Shown here piece after piece: positions 37,990 through 48,129 of a stretch of 64,000 nt of DNA (position 1 is its first letter; every line of letters starts with the position of its first letter). The stretch is taken from assembly GCF_018138085.1 (NCBI RefSeq), contig NZ_CP073105.1, forward strand, positions 62,001 through 126,000, read 5' to 3'. The translations under genes were made by a program, and so were the position numbers. The stretch is from Stutzerimonas stutzeri (GTDB taxonomy: Bacteria > Pseudomonadota > Gammaproteobacteria > Pseudomonadales > Pseudomonadaceae). The notes under the pieces were generated by a model. It had not been told where the DNA came from. It did no database searches and was given only the letters and a program-made list of their open reading frames with translations.

Positions 37990-38214
37990 CTTCGCGGTCA
38001 AGACCGCTCCCACGGGTCCGGGTGGCGCGGCTGTTTTTTTGTGGGAGCGGTCTCGACCGCGAAAAGGCTTCAGGAAGCGTCGTGGTTGAAGATAGCGTGA
38101 GGACTTTTGACAGGTAGGTCGGCGCCGCTGACAACAGAAGCTCGCGGTCAAGACCGCTCCCACGGGTCCGGGTGGCGCGGTTTGCTTTTTGTGGAAGCGG
38201 TCTTGACTGCGAAT
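37990..38214. repeat. Class A REP elements upstream of the RAYT
   Basis: Two inverted pairs: 37991-38012 with 38041-38062, and 38140-38163 with 38191-38213. The spacer of each pair (around ACGGGTCCGGGTGGCGCGG) is identical in its first half and similar to the spacer in the array beyond the 3' end of the RAYT gene. The last copy carries changes in both arms (GTGGAAGCGGTCTTGACTGC). The cysA stop lies 24 bases beyond. Confidence 0.9.
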
Positions 38215-38237
38215 GGATGCGAACTCGGCCGCCTCGC

Positions 38238-39221
38238 TCAGCGGATCACTGCGATAGCCGTTGCGGGTTTGAAGAACAAGGTTTCGCCGCGTATCAGGTC
38301 GGTCAGGCTGTGGTGATCATGGGCGACTTCCGCTTCGATGGGCTGCGGCTGACCGGCGACTCTGAGAGTCACGCGGGTGACGGCGCCAAGCGGACGGATG
38401 TCACGCACTTCAGCCGGTTGGAGGTCGGCCGCGGCGCCACGTGACAGATGGATCTCGTGCGGGCGGAAAAGGATCTGCTGGCCGCCGACCTGCAACTGGT
38501 TGGCGTCGCCCAGGAAGTGATAGACGAAATCGCTGGCCGGCTGACGGTAGACCTCGGCCGGCGAGCCGATCTGTTCGATCACACCCTTGTTCATCACCAC
38601 GATGCGATCGGCCACTTCCATCGCTTCTTCCTGATCGTGGGTGACGAATACCGAGGTCAGGTGCACCTCTTCGTGCAGCCGTGCCAGCCAGCGGCGCAGT
38701 TCCTTGCGCACCTTGGCGTCCAGCGCGCCGAAGGGTTCATCGAGCAGCAGCACCTTGGGTTCCACCGCCAGTGCACGTGCCAGGGCGATGCGTTGCCGTT
38801 GGCCGCCGGAAAGCTGGTCGGGATAGCGCTCGGCAAGCCAGTCGAGCTGGACCAGCTCGAGCAATTCATGAACCTTCTGCTTGATCCGGCTTTCAGTGGG
38901 CCGCTCGCGCCGCGGCTTCATCCGCAGGCCGAAGGCAACGTTGTCGAACACCGTCATGTGGCGGAACAGCGCGTAGTGCTGGAACACGAAGCCGACGTTG
39001 CGATCGCGTACATCACGCCCGGAAACGTCCTCGCCATGGAACACGATGCGCCCACTGTCCGGCGTTTCCAGCCCGGCGATGATGCGCAGCAGGGTGGTCT
39101 TGCCGCAGCCGGAGGGGCCGAGCAGGGCGACCAGCTCGCCGCTGGTGATGTTCAGGTTGATGTCGTTCAGGGCTTTGAACTGGTCGAACTGCTTGCTGAC
39201 GTGGCTCACTTCTATGGACAT
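38238..39221 (-). CDS. cysA: Sulfate/thiosulfate ABC transporter ATPase CysA
   Basis: A 327-residue importer ATPase: Walker [11 protein letters not shown]-loop in [12 protein letters not shown], signature [16 protein letters not shown], Walker [13 protein letters not shown], switch [10 protein letters not shown]. The C-terminal regulatory domain ([10 protein letters not shown] onward) is typical of CysA. It is the last gene of the sbp-cysT-cysW-cysA operon, three bases after the cysW stop. It energises uptake of sulfate and thiosulfate. Confidence 0.96.
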
Positions 39222-39224
39222 GAC

Positions 39225-40103
39225 TCACTCCTCGCCGGCGGCGGCTTTGAGGCGTTGAAGGCGGGACTCGCTCCACTGCTTGAGCAGCAGGATCAGCAGC
39301 GCCAGCAGCAACAACAGGCTGGCCACGCTGAAGGCGGCGACGTGGTTGTATTCGTTGTAGAGAATCTCGACATGCAGCGGCAGGGTGTTGGTGTAGCCGC
39401 GGATATGCCCGGAAACCACCGACACCGCACCGAACTCGCCCATCGCTCGCGCGGTGCAGAGCACCACGCCGTAGATCAGGCCCCAGCGGATGTTGGGCAG
39501 GGTCACGTGCCAGAACATCTGCCAGCCGTTGGCGCCGAGCAGCCGCGCCGCTTCTTCCTCCTGCGTGCCCTGTTCCTGCATCAGCGGGATCAGCTCGCGG
39601 GCGACGAAGGGCACGGTGACGAACACCGTGGCCAGGACGATGCCGGGTAAGGCGAAGATGATCTGGATGTCGCGCTCGCCCAGCCATTCGCCAAAAAAGC
39701 CCTGGGCGCCGAACAGCAGCACGTAAATCAGGCCAGCGATCACCGGCGAGACCGAGAAGGGCAGGTCGATCAGCGTGACCAGCAGGCTTTTGCCGGTGAA
39801 TTCGTATTTGCTGACGCACCAGGCCGCGGCCACGCCGAAGACCAGGTTGAGTGGCACGCAGATGCCGACTGCCAGCAGGGTCAGTTTCAGCGCGGCGAGG
39901 GCATCGGCTTCGAAGATCGCGCCGAAGAAGGTGCCGAGGCCGAGCTTCAATGCTTCACCCAGCACCACCAGCAACGGCAGCAGCAGGAACAGCGCGAACG
40001 TCAGCCAGCCGGCGAGGATCAGCAGTCGCCGCGGCAGTGGGTTGCCCTGGCGTGTCTTGCCGGCCAGCGGGACGGCAACGGAGGTGGTGGTCATCTCAGC
40101 CAT
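39225..40103 (-). CDS. cysW: Sulfate ABC transporter permease CysW
   Basis: A 292-residue permease with six helices. The EAA-type coupling loop lies in [25 protein letters not shown], and CysW-type residues are [23 protein letters not shown] and [19 protein letters not shown]. The start overlaps the end of cysT by 8 bases. It pairs with CysT to form the channel. Confidence 0.95.
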
Positions 40104-40914
40104 GGGTAATTCTCCGTTGCAGCAGATTGATCGCCAGCAGCAGCACGAAGGACACCAGCAGCATCAGCACGCCAATGGCCGTGGCGCCGTGGTAGTCGTA
40201 CTGGTCGAGCTTGACCATGATCAGCAGTGGCAGGATCTCAGTTTTCATCGGCATGTTGCCGGCGATGAATATCACCGAGCCGTATTCACCGACACCGCGA
40301 GCGAAGGCCAGGGAAAAACCCGTCAGCCAGGCCGGCAGCAGCGCCGGTAGCAGCACGTAGCGGGCGATCTGCAACGGTTTGGCACCCAGGCAAGCGGCCG
40401 CTTCCTCCACTTCGCGGGGGATGTCGGCCAATACCGGCTGCAGGGTGCGAACCACGAAGGGCAGGGTGACGAACGTCAGCGCCAAGGTAATGCCCAGCGG
40501 GGTGTAGGCGATCTTCAGGCCCAGTTCGGCCGCCAGTCGGCCGATCATTCCGTTCGGTGCGTACAAGGCGGTCAGGGCAATGCCTGCCACAGCGGTGGGC
40601 AAGGCGAAGGGCAGGTCGATCATCGCTTCGATGATCTTGCGGCCGGCAAAGCGGTAGCGCACCAGCACCCAGGCCAGTAGCGAACCGATCACGCCGTTGA
40701 TCAGCGCGGCGACGAAGGCGGTGCCAAAGCTCAGCTTCAGCGCCGCGACCACGCGCGGCGCCGTGATGATCGCCCAGAACTGCTCCCAGGTCAGTTGTGC
40801 GGCGTGGACGAACAGGGCACCCAGTGGGATCAGCACCAACAGGCTGAGGTACACCAGGGTGTAACCCAGCGTCAGCCCGAAGCCGGGTATGACGGGGGAG
40901 GTTTGACGGGACAT
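40096..40914 (-). CDS. cysT: Sulfate ABC transporter permease CysT
   Basis: A 272-residue permease starting [13 protein letters not shown] with six helices. The coupling loop is [28 protein letters not shown], and [21 protein letters not shown] is characteristic. The frame runs back to 40959, but the ATG at 40914 gives the family N-terminus. It lies between the binding-protein gene and cysW in the sulfate operon. Confidence 0.95.
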
Positions 40915-41067
40915 GGATCGGCCTTGTCTATTCGAACAATGTGTCGGCTGGAGCGTCACGAGCGCAGCTCAGACAAGGCGAAGGCCGGCGTGGGCCGCGG
41001 AGTTTACGGGCGGTAAATGAGCAGGCCCGAGCCGGTCTTCAACGCAGTATGAGCAAGCGCAGTAGCT

Positions 41068-42066
41068 TCATTCGGTCTGGTAGATCTGGTCGAACACGCC
41101 GCCATCGTTGAAGAACTTCGGCTGCGCGACGGCCCAGCCACCGAAGTCGTCGTCGATGGTCACCAGCTTCAGCGCGGGGAATTGCCCGGCGAACTCGGCG
41201 GCCACCGCCTGGTTGCGGGGGCGATAGAAGTGCTTGGCGGCGATGCGCTGGCCCTCGTCGCTGTAGAGGTAGTTCAGGTAGGCCTCGGCGACTTCACGGG
41301 TGCCCTTGCGCTCCACGTTCTTGTCGACGACTGCTACCGGGGGCTCGGCGAGGATCGATAGCGACGGCGCGACGATTTCCAGGGCATCGCCACCTTCTTC
41401 CTTGAGCGCCAGGAAGGCTTCGTTCTCCCAGGCCAGCAAGACGTCGCCGATCTGGTTGTTGACGAAGGTGATGGTCGAGCCACGCGCGCCGGTATCCAGC
41501 ACCGGCACCTGCTTGTAGAGCTGAGCGACGTATTCCTTGGCTTTCTCCTCGCTGCCGTACTGCTGTTGGGCCCAGGCCCAGGCGGCAAGGAAGTTCCAAC
41601 GCGCGCCGCCGGAGGTCTTCGGGTTCGGGGTGATCACTTCGACGCCGGGTTTGATCAGGTCGCCCCAGTCCTTGATGCCCTTGGGGTTGCCCTTGCGGAC
41701 GAGGAAGACGATGGTCGAGGTGTAGGGCGTGCTGGCGTCCGGCAGACGGCTCTGCCAGTCGGCCGGGATCAGTTTGCCGATCCGGTGCAGCTCGTCGATG
41801 TCGCCGGCCAAGGCCAGCGTCACCACGTCGGCGCGCAGGCCGTCGATGACCGCGCGGGCCTGCTTGCCCGAGCCGCCATGGGATTGCTGAATGCGCAGCG
41901 GTTCATGGCCTTGCGCCTGCCAGTGCTTGTTGAAGGCGGCATTGAAATCGACGTAGAGCTCGCGTGTCGGATCGTAAGACACGTTGAGCAGTTCGCCGGC
42001 GGCAAAAGCCTGACCGACGACAAGGGCGCTGGCCAGAACGGCCAGGATGGGTTTTCTGATAGACAT
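41068..42066 (-). CDS. sbp: Sulfate-binding protein
   Basis: A 332-residue periplasmic protein with a signal peptide (cleavage after QAFA). It has the sulfate-binding fold: [67 protein letters not shown] and YRPRNQAVA. It delivers sulfate to CysT/CysW. The start at 42066 has AGGAGCC upstream; a GTG-type extension to 42084 is not needed. Just upstream are a short RCRC peptide ORF and oscA. Confidence 0.96.
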
Positions 42067-42135
42067 GGAGGCTCCTTCTCGCATCCGTGCGGACGCGTTG
42101 CGTGCTGCTGGTGAGTTCTGGGTAGGGCGGTGGCG

Positions 42136-42225
42136 TCAGCTACGCATTCGGCAACGACAGCGGTGCAGCAGAAGGGCGGTCTGGGTTGGCGTGTACATGT
42201 TTAGGCTTTCCTGGCGTAGGTTCAT
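42136..42225 (-). CDS. 29-residue peptide ORF with RCRC motif (candidate Cys leader)
   Basis: This ORF is shorter than the usual annotation cut-off. It starts at ATG 42225 with GGAGGG six bases upstream and ends at TGA 42136. The peptide begins MNLRQESLNMYTPTQTALLL and ends HRCRCRMRS, so two Cys codons (TGT, TGC) lie five codons apart from the end. It sits between oscA (39 bases upstream) and sbp (69 bases downstream) and could be cotranscribed with both. In the downstream RNA, GCAACG can pair with CGTTGC across the Cys codons, and GCGTCC-GCAC-GGATGC can form a hairpin just before the sbp ribosome site. These are hand-folded. A leader that stalls when cysteinyl-tRNA is short is a natural reading but unproven. 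Confidence 0.55.
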   Translation of the reverse strand: MNLRQESLNMYTPTQTALLLHRCRCRMRS

Positions 42226-42264
42226 GTCACGCCCTCCGGTGGTCCGGTCGGGGTGGGGTTTGGG

Positions 42265-42450
42265 TCAGGCCTGCTTACCGGATGGCTGCAGGCGAATTTT
42301 CTCTTTGCGCTCGATCTGCACAATCTGGCCGTTGTGCAGGGTGATTTCTACAGAGCCATACTTCAGGCCCTGCATCGCAAGCCGGATCTCATGCAGGCCA
42401 TCGGCTTCTTCCCGGAGCTCGGGTGTTCGCGGTTCGGTTGTCATTGTCAT
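42265..42450 (-). CDS. oscA: Sulfur-starvation protein OscA (YezD/DUF2292 family)
   Basis: A 61-residue protein ending GSVEITLHNGQIVQIERKEKIR, the DUF2292/YezD fold. In Pseudomonas this small gene upstream of the sulfate operon is known as oscA, needed for growth on organosulfur compounds in chromate-containing conditions. Two starts are possible, ATG at 42450 and 42444; neither has a strong ribosome site. It is first in the row oscA, peptide ORF, sbp, cysT, cysW, cysA. Confidence 0.88.
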   Translation of the reverse strand: MTMTTEPRTPELREEADGLHEIRLAMQGLKYGSVEITLHNGQIVQIERKEKIRLQPSGKQA

Positions 42451-42514
42451 GTCTCATGAGCCATGTGAGCGCGATTCGAGCCGCGCTTTGGCGAATCATA
42501 AGCAGCTGCACATA

Positions 42515-42570
42515 TTCTCTAAAAATACTGTTTAGTTGGATTTATATTCATTTATAGAATAAACAGGCCG
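42515..42570 (-). promoter_or_regulatory. AT-rich control region upstream of oscA
   Basis: The DNA upstream of oscA, 42515-42566, is strikingly AT-rich in a GC-rich window. It contains an inverted repeat CTGTTTA (42528-42534) and TAAACAG (42560-42566) separated by 25 bases. A CysB-type LysR regulator would be expected to bind here in the sulfur regulon, and the dyad is a candidate site. I cannot assign the -35 and -10 hexamers with confidence. Confidence 0.45.
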
Positions 42571-42701
42571 CACTCCTCATCAGGCACAAGAACGCAGCAA
42601 CTGAAGGTAGAGACGATCGCTGATAGGTGTCGCCGCGGCCAGGGAGAACCGGTGTCATTCGTTACACTCTGATGCTTCATCGCCGTTCATCGAGCCGTCG
42701 C

Positions 42702-44645
42702 ATGCCCAGCCCCGCACCCTCCAACACCTACGCCTCCCTTCCTCTTGTGCTCGCCGGTCCCCTGCTGCGCCGGCTCGAAGCGGGGCGGCTGGTGCTCTGG
42801 CTGGTTGCCAGCGAGCCGCTGTCGTTGCGCCTGATGCTACAGCCCGAAGGAGAGGCGCCGGTTTCTCTGGCCGTGGAAGGCAAATGCTCTCGCCAGTTGC
42901 GAATGGGTACGTCGGCCTGGTTACACCTGATCGACCTTCATCTGGATAGCCCGCTGCCGGTCGATCAGATGATCGAATACGACGTGTTAATCCAGCGCGA
43001 CGGCCAGCAACAGGGCATCGCTGTTTGGGCGCCGCACCTGATTCACGAAGGATTCCAGCGCCCGGCCTTTGTCGTGCGCTCGCGCTACGACGATCTGCTG
43101 CATGGCTCCTGTCGCAAGCCGCACCATGCTTCGGCAGACGGATTAGTCACCGTCGATTCCCTGGTCGCCCAGACCCGCCGGGCCCCCGAACACTGGCCCG
43201 CCGCGCTGCTGATGACCGGCGACCAGATCTATGCCGACGACGTCGCCGGGCCGACCCTGGTAGCCATTCACGGATTGATCCGCCGGCTCGGTTTGTATGG
43301 CGAGTGTCTGGAAGGTGCAGTCGTCGCCGATAGTGATGAGCTGATGGCGCATTCGGCGACCTACTACCGGCGTGAGCAGTTGCTGCCGGCGTTCAAGTCC
43401 AACGAGGCGCTGCGCGAGCGCTTCTTCGGCGGCGTGGAAAAGCCGGTGTTCACGACGTCCAGCGCACATAACCATCTGGTCTCGCTGGGCGAGGTGTTGG
43501 CCATGTACCTGCTGGTCTGGTCGCCGATACCCTGGCAGCTGATCGAGCTTCAGCCGCCAGCGCTGGACGGCGAACTGGCTGATCGCTGGGCGCGTGAGCT
43601 ACGTGCTATCGATGACTTCCGGGCAGGCTTGCCGCAGGTTGCGCGTGCACTGGCGCACCTGCCGTCACTGATGATCTTCGATGACCACGACATCACCGAC
43701 GACTGGAACCTTAGCGCCCGCTGGGAAGAGACCGCCTACGGCCATCCGTTTTCCCGCCGCATCATCGGCAACGCACTGCTCGGTTATCTGCTGTGCCAGG
43801 CGTGGGGCAACGATCCGGATGCCTGCGTCACCTCACTGGATGGCGTCGAGGCGCTATTGGCCAGCGGCGAAGCTGGACGGCTGGATTGCACGCTGCACGA
43901 TGGTGTGGTCGATGAGCTACTGCAGCGCGGCGACTGGGGCTACGTGTTCCCCAGCGAGCCGGCGCTGGTAGTGCTCGACACGCGCACCCGGCGCTGGCGC
44001 AGCGAGCGCAATCTGAATCGGCCGTCGGGCTTGATGGATTGGGAGGCGCTCACTGATTTCCAGCAGGAACTGCTCGACCATCGTTCGGTGGTCATCGTCT
44101 CGCCGGCACCGATGTTCGGCGTCAAGCTGATCGAGGTCGTGCAGCGCGTGTTCAGCTGGGCCGGGCTGTCGCTCTTGGTCGACGCCGAAAACTGGATGGC
44201 CCATCGCGGCGCGGCGCAGGTCATGCTCAACATCTTTCGGCATACCCGCACGCCGGGTAACTACGTAATCCTCTCCGGCGACGTGCATTACTCGTTTGCC
44301 TATGAAGTGCACATTCGTGGCCGTGCCGAAGGCCCACGGCTATGGCAGATCACCAGCAGTGGCGTGAAGAACGAGTTTCCACCGCGCCTGCTCGACCTGT
44401 TCGACCGGCTCAATCGCTGGCTGTATTCGCCGCGCTCGCCGTTGAACTGGTTCACCAAGCGCCGCCGGGTGCGGGTCCAACCGTGGCTGCCGGGCCGCAG
44501 CCGGGCCGGCGAGCGCCTGTGGAACGGTGCGGGCATCGGTCGAGTGCGACTGGATGCCGAGGGGCGGCCGTCGCGTGTCGAACAGATCAATGCCGATGGG
44601 TCACCGCCGGTGAGCTTCGCCCCCGAGCGCGACCCGGCGCCCTAG
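42702..44645 (+). CDS. PhoD-like metallophosphatase
   Basis: About 647 residues of the alkaline phosphatase D family. Metal-binding motifs in order are MTGDQIYADDV, FDDHDITDDWN and LSGDVHYSFAYE; a SPAPMFGVKL strand precedes the last. No signal peptide is seen, so unlike PhoD itself it is probably cytoplasmic. The start is uncertain: ATG at 42702 or 42672; the open frame begins at 42627. It diverges from oscA. Its TAG stop shares the CTAG palindrome with the opposite-strand HAD gene. Confidence 0.82.
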   Translation: MPSPAPSNTYASLPLVLAGPLLRRLEAGRLVLWLVASEPLSLRLMLQPEGEAPVSLAVEGKCSRQLRMGTSAWLHLIDLHLDSPLPVDQMIEYDVLIQRDGQQQGIAVWAPHLIHEGFQRPAFVVRSRYDDLLHGSCRKPHHASADGLVTVDSLVAQTRRAPEHWPAALLMTGDQIYADDVAGPTLVAIHGLIRRLGLYGECLEGAVVADSDELMAHSATYYRREQLLPAFKSNEALRERFFGGVEKPVFTTSSAHNHLVSLGEVLAMYLLVWSPIPWQLIELQPPALDGELADRWARELRAIDDFRAGLPQVARALAHLPSLMIFDDHDITDDWNLSARWEETAYGHPFSRRIIGNALLGYLLCQAWGNDPDACVTSLDGVEALLASGEAGRLDCTLHDGVVDELLQRGDWGYVFPSEPALVVLDTRTRRWRSERNLNRPSGLMDWEALTDFQQELLDHRSVVIVSPAPMFGVKLIEVVQRVFSWAGLSLLVDAENWMAHRGAAQVMLNIFRHTRTPGNYVILSGDVHYSFAYEVHIRGRAEGPRLWQITSSGVKNEFPPRLLDLFDRLNRWLYSPRSPLNWFTKRRRVRVQPWLPGRSRAGERLWNGAGIGRVRLDAEGRPSRVEQINADGSPPVSFAPERDPAP

Positions 44646-45286
44646 GCGAACGCCGCGCGCAGCTCCGGCAGCGTTGCGTAGTAATACGCTGGCGAGTGCG
44701 CCATCAGCTCGGCATGGCTGCCAAAGCCGTAACCCACCGCTGCCGCTTTCAGCCCGTTGCTGTGCGCACCGATCAGGTCGTGCTTGCGATCGCCAATCAT
44801 CAGTGTCTGCTCTGGATCGAGCCCTTGTTCGGCGATCACGTGGGCAATCAGCTCGACCTTGTTAGTCCGAGTGCCGTCCAGCTCGCTGCCGTAGATCAGC
44901 TTGAAGTGATGATCGAAGGCGAAATGCCGGGCGATTTCGCGGGCGAACACTGAGGGCTTCGAGGTCGCCACATAGAGCGTCCGGCCTTGTCCGCGCAGGT
45001 GTTCGAGCATCTCCAGCACACCGTCGAACAGCAGGTTTTCGTACAGCCCGACCGTTTTGAAGCGCTCGCGGTAATGGCCGACGGCTTCCCATGCCCGCGC
45101 CTCATCGAAGCCATAGAACTCCATGAACGCCTGTAGCAGCGGTGGGCCGATAAAGGGCTCGAGCTTGCGCAGGTCCGGCTCGTCGATACCGAGCTTTGCC
45201 AGCGCATGCTGAATCGAGCGGGTGATGCCTTCGCGCGGGTCGGTGAGGGTGCCGTCGAGGTCGAAGAGGATGGTGGAATGGTGCAT
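44642..45286 (-). CDS. HAD-superfamily phosphatase, phosphoglycolate phosphatase-like
   Basis: A 214-residue HAD hydrolase: nucleophile motif LFDLDGTLTDPREG, a helical cap (residues 15-80), motif II in YVATSKPS, motif III Lys in TRTNKVELIAH, and motif IV MIGDRKHDLIGA. The cap type is that of Gph and 5'-nucleotidase relatives. It hydrolyses a small phosphate ester such as phosphoglycolate or a nucleotide. It ends tail to tail with the PhoD-like gene, their stops overlapping in one CTAG. PA0065-type gene of the conserved Pseudomonas order. Confidence 0.88.
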   Translation of the reverse strand: MHHSTILFDLDGTLTDPREGITRSIQHALAKLGIDEPDLRKLEPFIGPPLLQAFMEFYGFDEARAWEAVGHYRERFKTVGLYENLLFDGVLEMLEHLRGQGRTLYVATSKPSVFAREIARHFAFDHHFKLIYGSELDGTRTNKVELIAHVIAEQGLDPEQTLMIGDRKHDLIGAHSNGLKAAAVGYGFGSHAELMAHSPAYYYATLPELRAAFA

Positions 45287-45448
45287 GGGAGAAGCGGCCG
45301 GTAGCGGGTGGCCGTCAATTGTCCTTTACCCCTCGGCGCGAGGGCAAATGAGGCGCGCCGAGCGGTGCGGCACCTGTCAAAGCTCGCGATGCATGATGTA
45401 GCAGTCCACCAGCCCAAGGGTCCGATGGCGGTAAGCACGCGGCAAGGT

Positions 45449-45991
45449 TCAGTCGGCACAGCCTTCGGCCAGGTGCTGGTTCTTCAGCTTCACGTAGTTG
45501 CCAGCGGTATAGCTGAAGAAGCTGCGCTCCTTGTCGGTCAGTGGCCGGGCCTGCTTCGCTGGGCTGCCGACGTAGAGATAGCCGCTTTGCAGTGTTTTGC
45601 CCGGTGGCACCAGGCTGCCGGCGCCGATGATGACTTCGTCTTCTACCACCGCGCCGTCCATCACGATGGAACCCATGCCCACCAGGATGCGACTGCCGAG
45701 AGTGCAGCCGTGCAGGGTGACCTTGTGGCCGACCGTGACTTCGTCGCCAATGGTCAGTGGGAAGCCGTCCGGGTTGAATGGGCCGGCGTGGGTGATGTGC
45801 AGCACGCTGCCGTCCTGGATGCTGGTGCGTGCGCCGATGCGGATGCGGTGCATGTCGCCGCGGATCACGGTCAGTGGCCAGACGGAGCTGTCCTCGCCGA
45901 TCTCGATGTCGCCGATGAGCACGGCGCTGGGGTCGACAAAGACGCGTTCGCCAAGTACCGGCGTGTGGCCCTGGAAGGTTCGGATGCTCAT
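45449..45991 (-). CDS. Gamma-carbonic anhydrase family protein
   Basis: A 180-residue left-handed beta-helix made of hexapeptide repeats (VLIGDIEIGEDSSVWPLTVI and onward). The zinc ligands appear as H65 or H68 in SVLHITHAG, H89 and H94 in VGHKVTLHG. The family (YrdA/CaiE/PaaY-like) includes carbonic anhydrases and thioesterases. The start at 45991 with AAAGGAACAACCC upstream is strongly supported; the longer frame is antisense sequence. It is transcribed from near the AraC gene 3' end. Confidence 0.92.
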   Translation of the reverse strand: MSIRTFQGHTPVLGERVFVDPSAVLIGDIEIGEDSSVWPLTVIRGDMHRIRIGARTSIQDGSVLHITHAGPFNPDGFPLTIGDEVTVGHKVTLHGCTLGSRILVGMGSIVMDGAVVEDEVIIGAGSLVPPGKTLQSGYLYVGSPAKQARPLTDKERSFFSYTAGNYVKLKNQHLAEGCAD

Positions 45992-46025
45992 GGGTTGTTC
46001 CTTTAGCGTGTGAAAGTTTGGCCGG

Positions 46026-46850
46026 TCACTGGTAGACCCGGCCTTCGACGGCATTGCTGCCGGCGCGGAAGAATTCGCCTGGCGTTGCGCCGAACTGCTC
46101 GCGAAACGCGGCGATAAAGGCTGAAAGTGAGTCGTAGCCGCAGCCCAGCGCCACATCGGTGACGCGCTCGCCGCGCTCCAGCGCCGGCAGCGCGCTGAGC
46201 AGTCGCAGGCGCTGACGCCAGGCACGAAAGGTCAGCCCGGTTTCACGGAGAAACAGCCGGCTCAGGGTCCGCTCCGAGACGCCCAGCGTGCGGCTCCAGT
46301 CGGCCAGGCCTTCCTGCGACTCCGGCTGCGCCTGCAGGCTTTTGCATAGCCGATGCAGGCGTGGCTCGGCCGGCAGTGGCAACACCAGTTCGACCTCCGG
46401 CGCGCAGCTCAGCTGGTCCAGCAGTACCTGCACCAGTCGGCCTTCCGCGCCGTCTTCGGCATAGGCTTCGGGCAGGGTGCTGAAATGCCGGATCAGCTCG
46501 CGCAACAGCGGGCTGACCTGCAGCACACGGCAGTGCTCGGACGCCTCGCCGGCCACGGCCTGATCGATGTAAAGGCTGCGAATACAGGTGTCCGGCGCGC
46601 AGAAAACCTGGTGCGTCACGCCCGCTGGAATCCACACCGCGCGCAGCGGTGGCGCGATGAAGCGGCCACTGTCGGTGCGTACTTCGAGTACGCCTTCGAC
46701 CGCGTGGGATAGCTGCACCCAGGGGTGGCTGTGGCGGTAGCCGAGCTTGAGGTTGGGCGGCGAGTCGAGCTGGCCGTAGACCGGCCTCGGCAACGTCTTG
46801 AGCTCGCCGAGGCGGGTAATCAGCGCGGCTTCTTGTCCGATTGGCGACAT
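46026..46850 (-). CDS. AraC-family transcriptional regulator
   Basis: A 274-residue regulator: N-terminal cupin-like domain (LKLGYRHSHPWVQLSHAVEGVLEV, then AVWIPAGVTHQVF) and a C-terminal double helix-turn-helix (DWSRTLGVSERTLSRLFLRETG and VTDVALGCGYDSLSAFIAAFREQFG). It resembles the NimR group that often controls an adjacent efflux gene. The neighbour in the divergent direction is a decayed bile-acid symporter gene, so the target may have been lost. Start chosen at 46850. Confidence 0.88.
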   Translation of the reverse strand: MSPIGQEAALITRLGELKTLPRPVYGQLDSPPNLKLGYRHSHPWVQLSHAVEGVLEVRTDSGRFIAPPLRAVWIPAGVTHQVFCAPDTCIRSLYIDQAVAGEASEHCRVLQVSPLLRELIRHFSTLPEAYAEDGAEGRLVQVLLDQLSCAPEVELVLPLPAEPRLHRLCKSLQAQPESQEGLADWSRTLGVSERTLSRLFLRETGLTFRAWRQRLRLLSALPALERGERVTDVALGCGYDSLSAFIAAFREQFGATPGEFFRAGSNAVEGRVYQ

Positions 46851-46929
46851 TTCATGCCTGCTTGGCGTTAGTCGGAAGGTGCCGCCCACGTTAAGGTCGA
46901 TCCCTGTTGCCTGCAAGCCCCAAGGAACC

Positions 46930-47782
46930 GCCGCCATCGCGCTGCTGTTCTTCATGCACGGCGCCAAGCTGTCTCGCGAGGCGATCCTCGCCGGTGCCGG
47001 CCACTGGCGTCTGCACCTTCGTTATGTTTCCGCTGCTCGGGCTGGTGCTCAAGCCGGTGCTGACCCCGATGGTGGGCAACGATCTTTACCTGGGCATGCT
47101 CTACCTCTGCGCGCTGCCGGCTACGGTGCAATCGGCCATTGCCTTCACCTCGCTGGCGCGCGGCAACGTGCCGGCGGCGATCTGTAGCGCCGCGGCGTCC
47201 AGCCTGATCGGCATCTTCCTCACGCCCTTGCTGGTGCTGCTGTTGATGGGTGTCGAAGGGGACAGCGGCTCGACGCTGGATTCCATAGGCAAGATCGTGC
47301 TGCAACTGCTGGTGCCCTTCGTCGCCGGGCAGGTCGCCCGCCGCTGGATCGGCGCCTGGGTGACGCGCAACAAGACCTGGCTGAAAACCGTAGATCAGAG
47401 TTCGATCCTGCTGGTGGTCTACACCGCGTTCAGTGGCGCTGTGGTCGAAGGGCTCTGGCAGCTCGTGCCGCTTGGCAACCTGCTTGGACTGGTGGTGGCC
47501 TGCTGCCTGTTGCTGGCCATCGTGCTGTGGCTGACGAGCATGCTGGCCAAGGTATTCGGCTTCAATCTGGAGGACCGCATCACCATCCTCTTCGCCGGTT
47601 CGAAGAAGAGCCTGGCGACCGGCGTGCCCATGGCGCAGGTGCTGTTCGCCACCAGCGCGGTCGGCATGATCATCCTGCCGTTGATGCTCTTCCATCAGAT
47701 CCAACTGATGGTCTGCACGGTGCTCGCCCAGCGCTATGCGCGGCGGCCCGAGCTGCCTGTGGAATCGCCTGCGGCTTCGTAG
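46930..47782 (+). pseudogene. Bile acid:sodium symporter (YfeH-type), N-terminally truncated and frameshifted
   Basis: The long frame here encodes helices 3-10 of a YfeH-type symporter (FVMFPLLGLVLKP, ALPATVQSAIAFTSLARGN, FAGSKKSLATGVPMAQVLF). The preceding helix (AIALLFFMHGAKLSREAI) is in a different frame, from 46930 to about 47019. The join reads HWRLHL in one frame and CTFVMFP in the other at about 47012-47020, so a deletion of a few codons shifted the frame. The usual first about 45 residues, with the start codon, are also absent; sequence before 46930 does not resemble them. The gene is broken in two ways. It diverges from an AraC regulator that may have controlled it. Confidence 0.85.
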
Positions 47783-48129
47783 AAGCCACTTGTCTGTGCT
47801 CCGGCAAGCGGCCGTTGCGACGGGTACGAGCCAGCTTGCCGGCGATCCGCAGTGGCGGTACGCAACGCTGCCGGAGCGGCATACACGCGATCGCGAGCGA
47901 AAGGCTGTGCCGCGGGAACCCGCGCTGCAGGAAACCGTCGCAATAAGAGCGACTCGGCCGAGTGGGGCGGGTTCGCTTTTCACTGTTACGCAGCGCATCC
48001 GGGATTGCACAAGCTCAGCGGATTCATCATGCATAGCGCCACGCTATCGAGCCGTTTGCTGGCTGCGCGGCCGGGCAATTGTCTTTAACATGCTCGGCTG
48101 ATCACTTTATTTCAGAAGGGGCAAACGCC
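47783..48129. other. Gene-free stretch upstream of prlC
   Basis: About 347 bases. Minus-strand frames here are short and unlike any protein. I see no REP or clear promoter. It ends with GGGG at about 48117-48120 as the ribosome site of prlC. Confidence 0.4.

Follow-up and report, generated by a model that had tools for sequence, protein, structure and literature searches.

A conserved reading frame rich in Cys codons between oscA and sbp, a candidate translational attenuator of sulfate uptake in the Pseudomonas family

Comparison of relatives shows a conserved short open reading frame between two genes of sulfur starvation, oscA and the sulfate-binding protein gene sbp, with a tail that is rich in Cys codons. 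With moderate confidence, and leaning on folding models, we propose that this frame belongs to an intercistronic translational attenuator through which the supply of Cys-tRNA would control sulfate uptake. A broader proposal is tentative, and we hold it possible rather than probable: that a cysteine-sensing translational attenuator lies within this operon in several genera of the Pseudomonas family, that its sensing Cys codons double as the anti-Shine-Dalgarno (anti-SD) strand, and that in one lineage the anti-SD sits five to six codons further upstream while the Cys codons are kept. That lineage includes the stretch of Stutzerimonas stutzeri DNA analysed here (64,000 nucleotides, hereafter the window).

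A preliminary description of the window, which left the strand unstated, had reported a 29-codon ORF with a GGAGGG site at spacing 6 and an RCRC-type tail directly before the sulfate operon. Direct reading confirms all of this, on the minus strand (Table 1). The frame runs from an ATG at 42225-42223 to a stop at 42138-42136, encodes the peptide MNLRQESLNMYTPTQTALLLHRCRCRMRS and stands in the minus-strand gene order oscA, leader ORF (uORF), sbp, then cysT, cysW and cysA. The OscA call is based on a DUF2292 match above its cut-off and on NF033785, at 79.6 bits against a cut-off of 85 (E 1.3e-22). The leader peptide had no match in Pfam or NCBIfam. With the Rfam covariance models the interval was without a match; five weak matches lie elsewhere in 38000-48000 (E up to 5), and six relatives gave only three off-site matches (E up to 1). 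Divergent from oscA, a 672-residue plus-strand ORF at 42627-44645 matches PhoD-like phosphatases.

The sole sigma-70-like site within 41900-42700 is upstream of oscA, and a consensus scan found no intrinsic terminator on the coding strand between the uORF and sbp, both terminator-like sites of 41900-42700 being on the plus strand. For these reasons oscA, the leader ORF and sbp probably share one transcript. Two papers (PMC2996968, PMC3596284, citing Viti 2009) report an oscA-sbp transcriptional unit in P. corrugata.

Table 1. Features of the oscA-sbp locus, in positions of the window
Feature	Position	Strand	Basis
oscA	42265-42450	minus	NF033785 (under cut-off) and PF10055
Small hairpin CCGG-ACCA-CCGG overlapping the uORF SD	42236-42247	minus	RNAalifold, 41 leaders
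uORF Shine-Dalgarno GGAGGG, spacing 6	42232-42237	minus	Read directly; within conserved element GACCACCGGAGGGCGTGA
Start-codon hairpin GGCGTGACATG ... CATGT-A-CACGCC, enclosing both ATGs	42188-42233	minus	Predicted, conserved
Leader ORF (uORF), 29 codons, tail HRCRCRMRS	42136-42225	minus	Read directly; family ORF in relatives
uORF portion from second ATG, MYTPTQTALLLHRCRCRMRS	42136-42198	minus	Alignments A1 and A3
Proposed anti-SD CCUUCU inside the uORF	42170-42175	minus	Pairs with sbp SD in the window's minimum-energy fold
First Cys codon TGT, proposed stall site	42157-42159	minus	Cys in 8/8 RCRC-lineage leaders
Second Cys codon TGC	42151-42153	minus	Cys in 8/8 RCRC-lineage leaders
Local hairpin GCGUCC-GCAC-GGAUGC just before the sbp SD	42081-42096	minus	Predicted
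sbp ribosome-binding site AGAAGGAG	42072-42079	minus	Read directly; sequestration modelled
sbp, sulfate-binding protein	41068-42066	minus	NF008022, 473 bits, cut-off 288
cysT, cysW, cysA	38238-40959	minus	NCBIfam matches

The leader ORF recurs in intervals behind OscA, which a search with one sequence found in 24 of 58 relatives and a model search in 226 of 298 family genomes. Among 99 distinct intervals with the conserved 5' hairpin were 84 leaders, 14 intervals without the ORF and one false uORF call (L247), which was excluded before counting; oscA lies directly in front of 79 of the 84 leaders. These counts carry a bias toward a coding result, since ORF detection demanded an open frame ending in RM (or QM, AM) and frame-broken copies were counted as without ORF. 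A further set of 48 distinct sampled intervals without the ORF, hairpin present or not, overlaps the 14. When the DNA pattern of the commonest tail was searched in a collection with one genome per species, it occurred on 32 contigs, with sbp directly downstream in all 32 and oscA detected upstream in 30; the matches include Stutzerimonas species, P. aeruginosa PA7, P. nitroreducens, P. peli, P. indica and P. panipatensis. An 18-mer around the SD of the ORF, allowing up to two mismatches, was found in 39 of 56 genus genomes, partly at unrelated sites (for example in L058, L059 and L070, where oscA was not found).

A covariance model built from 41 leaders matched 123 of the 298 family genomes at E up to 0.01. 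Below 1e-7 a hand count gave 84 matches in 83 genomes, many of them the training sequences; three such matches (G192, G309, G243) were obtained, yet the fetched sequence did not show the ORF. Among the fetched matches of the model that did not show the leader, L236 and L240 keep the hairpin and have lost the tail, L241 has no hairpin with its context, and L247 is the false call mentioned above. Many relatives retain oscA and sbp without the leader, and in the largest genus the fetched oscA-sbp intervals are mostly without the leader ORF; genome sampling was uneven. Single genomes add to this picture. G009 (L024) has oscA and no leader, and none of 19 same-genus genomes without OscA gave a strong match to the leader model (G013 gave a weak one, E 0.0025). 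G116 carries two oscA-leader-sbp loci (L228, L229) with the Cys-rich tails RCCCWRMCR and RRCCWRM.

Beyond the family, the pattern C-x-C-x-P-R-M-R was found in 22 of 194 genomes of the order and a stricter form in 15 of 274 of the class, patterns that do not cover RCRC or CCW tails. For tails of this type we rejected a leader outside the family: on inspection only family members (L121, L129) carried it, and the other matches were judged to be chance occurrences from frame length and context, such as the L105 frame, which ends just behind the motif and precedes an unrelated 452-codon frame. In L143 a peptide ending CFCRCMPRMR stands before another gene.

Tails take different forms by lineage, HRYCSC.PRMR being the commonest, beside HRCRCRMRS, RRCCWRM and RYCSCCPRMCR, and the Cys positions shift among them. 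The Cys-rich leader ORF proved conserved, and the RCRC tail named in the preliminary description is confined to one lineage of 8 leaders. The classes HRYC, RCRC, CCW and other were set by peptide pattern and vary by analysis: their sizes are 59, 6, 9 and 5 for substitution counts (only leaders with oscA found, and 56 of the 59 HRYC leaders used), 53, 8, 9 and 14 for string pairing, and 60, 8, 9 and 7 for opening energy and pairing probability. Alignments A1 and A2 hold 41 and 39 of the leaders then known.

Cys is present within the last 11 residues of 81 of the 84 leaders. It makes up 119 of the 744 last-12 codons (16.0%) of 62 distinct tails, which are related and not 62 independent cases; 200 base shuffles averaged 2.9% and never exceeded 4.4%, and seven genes of the window have 19 Cys among 2437 codons (0.78%). 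The claim that Cys is enriched beyond chance is therefore upheld. The other two frames of the 62 tails hold 70 and 2 Cys codons, against 119 in frame. At least one Cys occurs in 59 of the 62 and three or four in 11. Among the HRYC leaders the first Cys position is TGC in 51 of 56 and the second TGT or TGC in 41 of 56, being otherwise S, G, R or Y among others. Three leaders (L179, L238, L239) keep the RMR tail and have no Cys codon, which makes them natural tests of Cys sensing.

The leader is probably a genuine reading frame, judging from how it has changed among relatives. The alignment check of synonymous sites proposed with the preliminary description gave a divided answer. In nine inner HRYC codons, which we chose from the per-codon table, parsimony counts 29, 15 and 44 substitutions at codon positions 1, 2 and 3 (56 leaders); all 13 HRYC codons give 53, 31 and 61, a wobble excess like that of oscA (128, 106 and 239). 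The excess is absent in the RCRC lineage (8, 14 and 15; 6 leaders) and in the CCW lineage (36, 25 and 30; 9 leaders, anchored at the stop although their lengths differ). In the alignments, insertions and deletions behind the second in-frame ATG (42198-42196) come in multiples of three, and the stretch from the first to the second ATG shows no such tie to the frame. Close to the ORF's end a rare Arg codon, CGA, precedes ATG almost without exception (55 of 56 HRYC leaders); in the window CGA is at 42148-42150 and ATG at 42145-42147. The pair is kept also in Cys-less leaders (alignments A1-A4), and a pause or an RNA constraint is a possible cause.

The second ATG is the better conserved start of the frame. 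Of the 77 leaders with an ATG close behind the SD, 11 have one from which translation would not reach the conserved tail, and in L004, of the window's own lineage, loss of a single base shifts the first ATG out of frame and leaves the frame from the second ATG intact. Which start codon is used is therefore uncertain. In L003, L014 and L005 the first ATG opens an ORF of five or six codons whose stop overlaps the second ATG (ATGA), which suggests a coupled mini-ORF ahead of the leader ORF.

With no ribosome on it, the tail is predicted by folding to sequester the sbp ribosome-binding site by base pairing. Among HRYC leaders, the Cys-Ser codons UGCAGC and the GCUGCA that follows the SD are paired at a mean probability of 0.91 in all 48 leaders that have both strings; AGCUGCA is also present in 10 of the 48 distinct intervals without the ORF. 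CCW leaders can pair GCUGUUGCU with AGCAACAGC in 89.7% of cells (8 leaders), with a covariation score reached by 60 of 500 shuffles. In the RCRC lineage it is codons -13 and -12 that pair with the sbp site (mean probability 0.51 and 0.63, 8 leaders), the strand being CCUUCU or its counterpart, 5-6 codons or about 15 nt before the first Cys codon. Treated as a helix of fixed columns, CCUUCU pairs in 75.0% of cells, no better than after a slide of 3 columns. The predicted pairing with the sbp site averages 0.46 for Cys codons against 0.08 for other tail codons, and a Cys codon exceeds 0.5 in 53 of 60 HRYC, 6 of 9 CCW, 0 of 8 RCRC and 0 of 7 other leaders.

Tails also match their own sbp sites better than those of others. 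With 22 pairs, one per SD haplotype, own partners reached a helix score of 13.41 against 11.92 for permuted ones (p=0.004; duplex energy, p=0.025); with 61 reduced pairs, 0 of 5000 permutations did as well, a figure that relatedness weakens. Single leaders do not stand out in this test. The window is among them: its tail scores better with 14 of 21 other SD haplotypes than with its own, the tested stretches having cut off the end of the CCUUCU pairing. Some variants match on both sides (AUGUAGCU:AGCUGCAU in L244, UGCGCU:AGCGCA in L086), and L192 has one change from A-U to G-C. The HRYC pairing shows 1 double change and a covariation score reached by 490 of 500 shuffles, so it is conserved rather than covarying. 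Overall, partners match better than permuted ones between lineages, with little or no covariation within them. The local hairpin just before the sbp SD changes from U-G to U-A in two of 8 relatives (alignment A3).

The two interleaving pairings that were originally put forward for the window fared less well. The complementary strings exist and do interleave, CGTTGC (42156-42151) with GCAACG (42101-42096) and CTGCTG (42171-42166) with CAGCAG (42110-42105). As a shared pairing CTGCTG:CAGCAG had to be given up, as all six pairs form in the window only; across 8 leaders 54.2% of cells pair, a value reached by 6 of 500 shuffles and exceeded by a 3-column slide (62.5%). The CGTTG:CAACG core is intact in 5 of the 8 leaders and has an uncompensated C-A mismatch in the other 3, with no covariation; it may be part of the closed state. 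The preliminary description is in this sense partly supported: its idea of a Cys-responsive leader seems largely right, and its two pairings are poorly supported in relatives.

We then modelled a ribosome on the leader and calculated the energy needed to open the sbp site; all values are results of the energy model. Over 81 leaders, a stall at the first Cys codon gave a ddG of -2.75 kcal/mol, and the shuffled tails, 12 per leader, gave -0.45. The effect exceeded the shuffle mean in 67 of the 81 leaders (56 of 60 HRYC, 4 of 8 RCRC, 5 of 9 CCW and 2 of 4 others) and in 52 of the 81 no more than 1 of 12 shuffles equalled it. The site is also opened by a ribosome at codons up to -11 (-1.89; the first Cys gives -2.76 and the stop -1.24). 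The mean cost for HRYC leaders is 10.9 kcal/mol when the tail is free, 7.5-8.0 with the ribosome at codons -12 to -5 and 9.5 at the stop; for RCRC leaders it is 7.6 free, 4.6-5.1 at codons -11 to -6 and 7.4 at the stop, and for CCW leaders 7.6 free, 4.9-5.8 at codons -10 to -1 and 5.9 at the stop. In the window a ribosome at the first Cys drops the energy from 8.1 to 3.6 kcal/mol, and the window's shuffles start at 3.4-6.0; a ribosome at the second Cys leaves the site closed (7.3 kcal/mol). In L004, L072 and L084, of the same lineage, the site is nearly open already. These energies, with their shuffled-tail control, supersede a measure of mean SD accessibility under the ribosome footprint, which had shifted weakly from 0.30 to 0.35.

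These predictions can be combined into one mechanism. As long as no ribosome is on the tail, the tail would pair with the sbp ribosome-binding site and keep it closed. The strand that pairs would consist mostly of the Cys codons themselves in HRYC and CCW leaders (UGCAGCU:AGCUGCA and the CCW strings above), and in RCRC leaders of CCUUCU or its counterpart ahead of the Cys codons. When charged Cys-tRNA is scarce, a ribosome waiting at the first Cys codon would cover the pairing strand and free the sbp start, and the sulfate-binding protein would rise separately from oscA. With ample cysteine the ribosome would pass, terminate and leave, and the site would reclose. We read the layout as translational rather than transcriptional because the coding strand has no terminator-like site. 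The attenuator layout described at the outset thus holds insofar as the predicted structure couples ribosome position to sbp; it does not extend to a coding-strand terminator, and a stall at the second Cys leaves the window's site closed. Our confidence in the attenuator is tempered by adverse results in the window's own lineage, namely the fixed helix, the partner test and the stall with shuffled tails.

The main rival to this reading is that the tail acts merely as an anti-SD that keeps sbp translation low, that any translation of the uORF opens the site, and that Cys is a by-product of complementarity to AGCUGCA or AGCAACA, with no sensing. Cys could be such a by-product in part, because 3 of the 84 leaders have no Cys and the paired strand accounts for 75 of the 99 Cys codons in the HRYC and CCW lineages. 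In addition, a stall at codons -12 to -10 is as effective as a Cys stall in opening the site of HRYC leaders. However, Cys outside the paired strand still amounts to 43 of 594 codons over all lineages (7.2%, against 2.9% in shuffles and 0.78% in the window's genes; HRYC alone, 16 of 362 or 4.4%). The RCRC lineage keeps both Cys in 8 of 8 leaders while 13 of the 14 Cys of its distinct tails are unpaired with the sbp site, and it speaks for Cys sensing because its Cys codons are kept though they lie outside the pairing strand. That cysteine would be the signal is thus suggested by the codons, the pathway and the RCRC lineage, and we regard the account without sensing as unlikely, if the most serious of the alternatives.

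Two other accounts would have different causes for the control of sbp. In one, a C-rich, G-poor spacer behind the uORF would recruit Rho and so attenuate transcription, except when a ribosome stays on the tail. The composition fits, with 36% C and 16% G in the pooled spacers and C above G in 84 of 84 leaders. The match between tail and sbp site is left unexplained by Rho, the spacer ranges from 45 to 154 nt, and inspected intervals without the uORF have a similar A/C-rich stretch before sbp; we consider this account quite improbable. The other account, which we give slightly less credence still, is that the conserved [P]RMR tail as nascent peptide, or the rare CGA before ATG as slow codon, stalls the ribosome in place of Cys. 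The same CGA that is present in 55 of 56 HRYC leaders makes up only 10 of 176 Arg codons in the seven window genes, and RMR is kept in the three Cys-less leaders. Against an arrest, the residue after RM may be R, C, P or absent, the preceding residues differ by lineage, and in HRYC and RCRC, though not in CCW, a stall between codon -4 and the stop is less effective than a Cys stall in opening the sbp site.

Transcription factors such as CysB are usually named as the regulators of sulfur metabolism in Pseudomonas and Stutzerimonas. If the attenuator that we propose is real, sulfate uptake would gain a direct post-transcriptional sensor in a leader that reads the charging of Cys-tRNA, and sbp could be set apart from oscA within one transcript. 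In erm-type translational attenuators leader RNA masks a downstream ribosome site until a ribosome stalls on the leader; there the stall is caused by an antibiotic, and here it would be caused by lack of Cys-tRNA. TnaC- and SpeFL-type leaders, which act through Rho and small-molecule arrest, likewise encode peptides with conserved residues near their C-terminus.

In mycobacteria, Cys-rich uORFs have been described ahead of cysteine and sulfur genes (Shell 2015, PMC4633059; Canestrari 2020 as cited in PMC9094748). Those uORFs too are short, have Cys codons near the end, lie upstream of sulfur genes and are proposed to respond to cysteine. They are, however, leaderless and belong to a different phylum, and their Cys codons are clustered, whereas those of the window are separated; the leader described here is SD-led, stands between two genes and is predicted to pair, as an anti-SD, with the ribosome site downstream. 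The likeness drawn here is one of layout. In Rhodobacterales the uORFC-8-2 motif before cysS, with predicted transcription attenuation (PMC8632094), also has a uORF with conserved Cys codons within a conserved RNA structure. It differs in its tandem Cys codons, its position before cysteinyl-tRNA synthetase and its intrinsic terminator, which was not found here. What would set the present leader apart from known Cys leaders is its placement and an anti-SD in place of the terminator. If so, cysteine attenuation, as in mycobacteria and as predicted for Rhodobacterales cysS, would extend to another bacterial group and to an anti-SD mode. Among the literature matches listed, titles and the beginnings of abstracts contained no leader ORF between oscA and sbp, a scope mostly outside subscription papers. 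Natural Cys-less variants and lineages with a relocated pairing strand make the idea directly testable.

The 5' part of the leader carries structures of its own. The predicted start-codon hairpin keeps 11 pairs invariant in 8 of 8 leaders of the window's lineage, with no covariation. In 39 HRYC leaders 93.4% of its cells are paired against 91.7% in shuffles (0 of 500 as high); one pair shows a double change from C-G to U-A in 6 of the 39, and the covariation score was equalled by 70 of 500 shuffles. A tail hairpin, CCGC-GAAU-GCGG, was also tried and is not claimed, as 68.7% of its cells pair in 39 leaders against 72.4% in shuffles. The small hairpin at the SD persists in form in some intervals without the uORF. 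Ten loci (L089, L090, L091, L096, L099, L100, L193, L194, L195 and L197) have a hairpin CYGG-NNNN-CCRG with a purine-rich GAGG-type stretch and no leader ORF, and this hairpin may have a role of its own between oscA and sbp.
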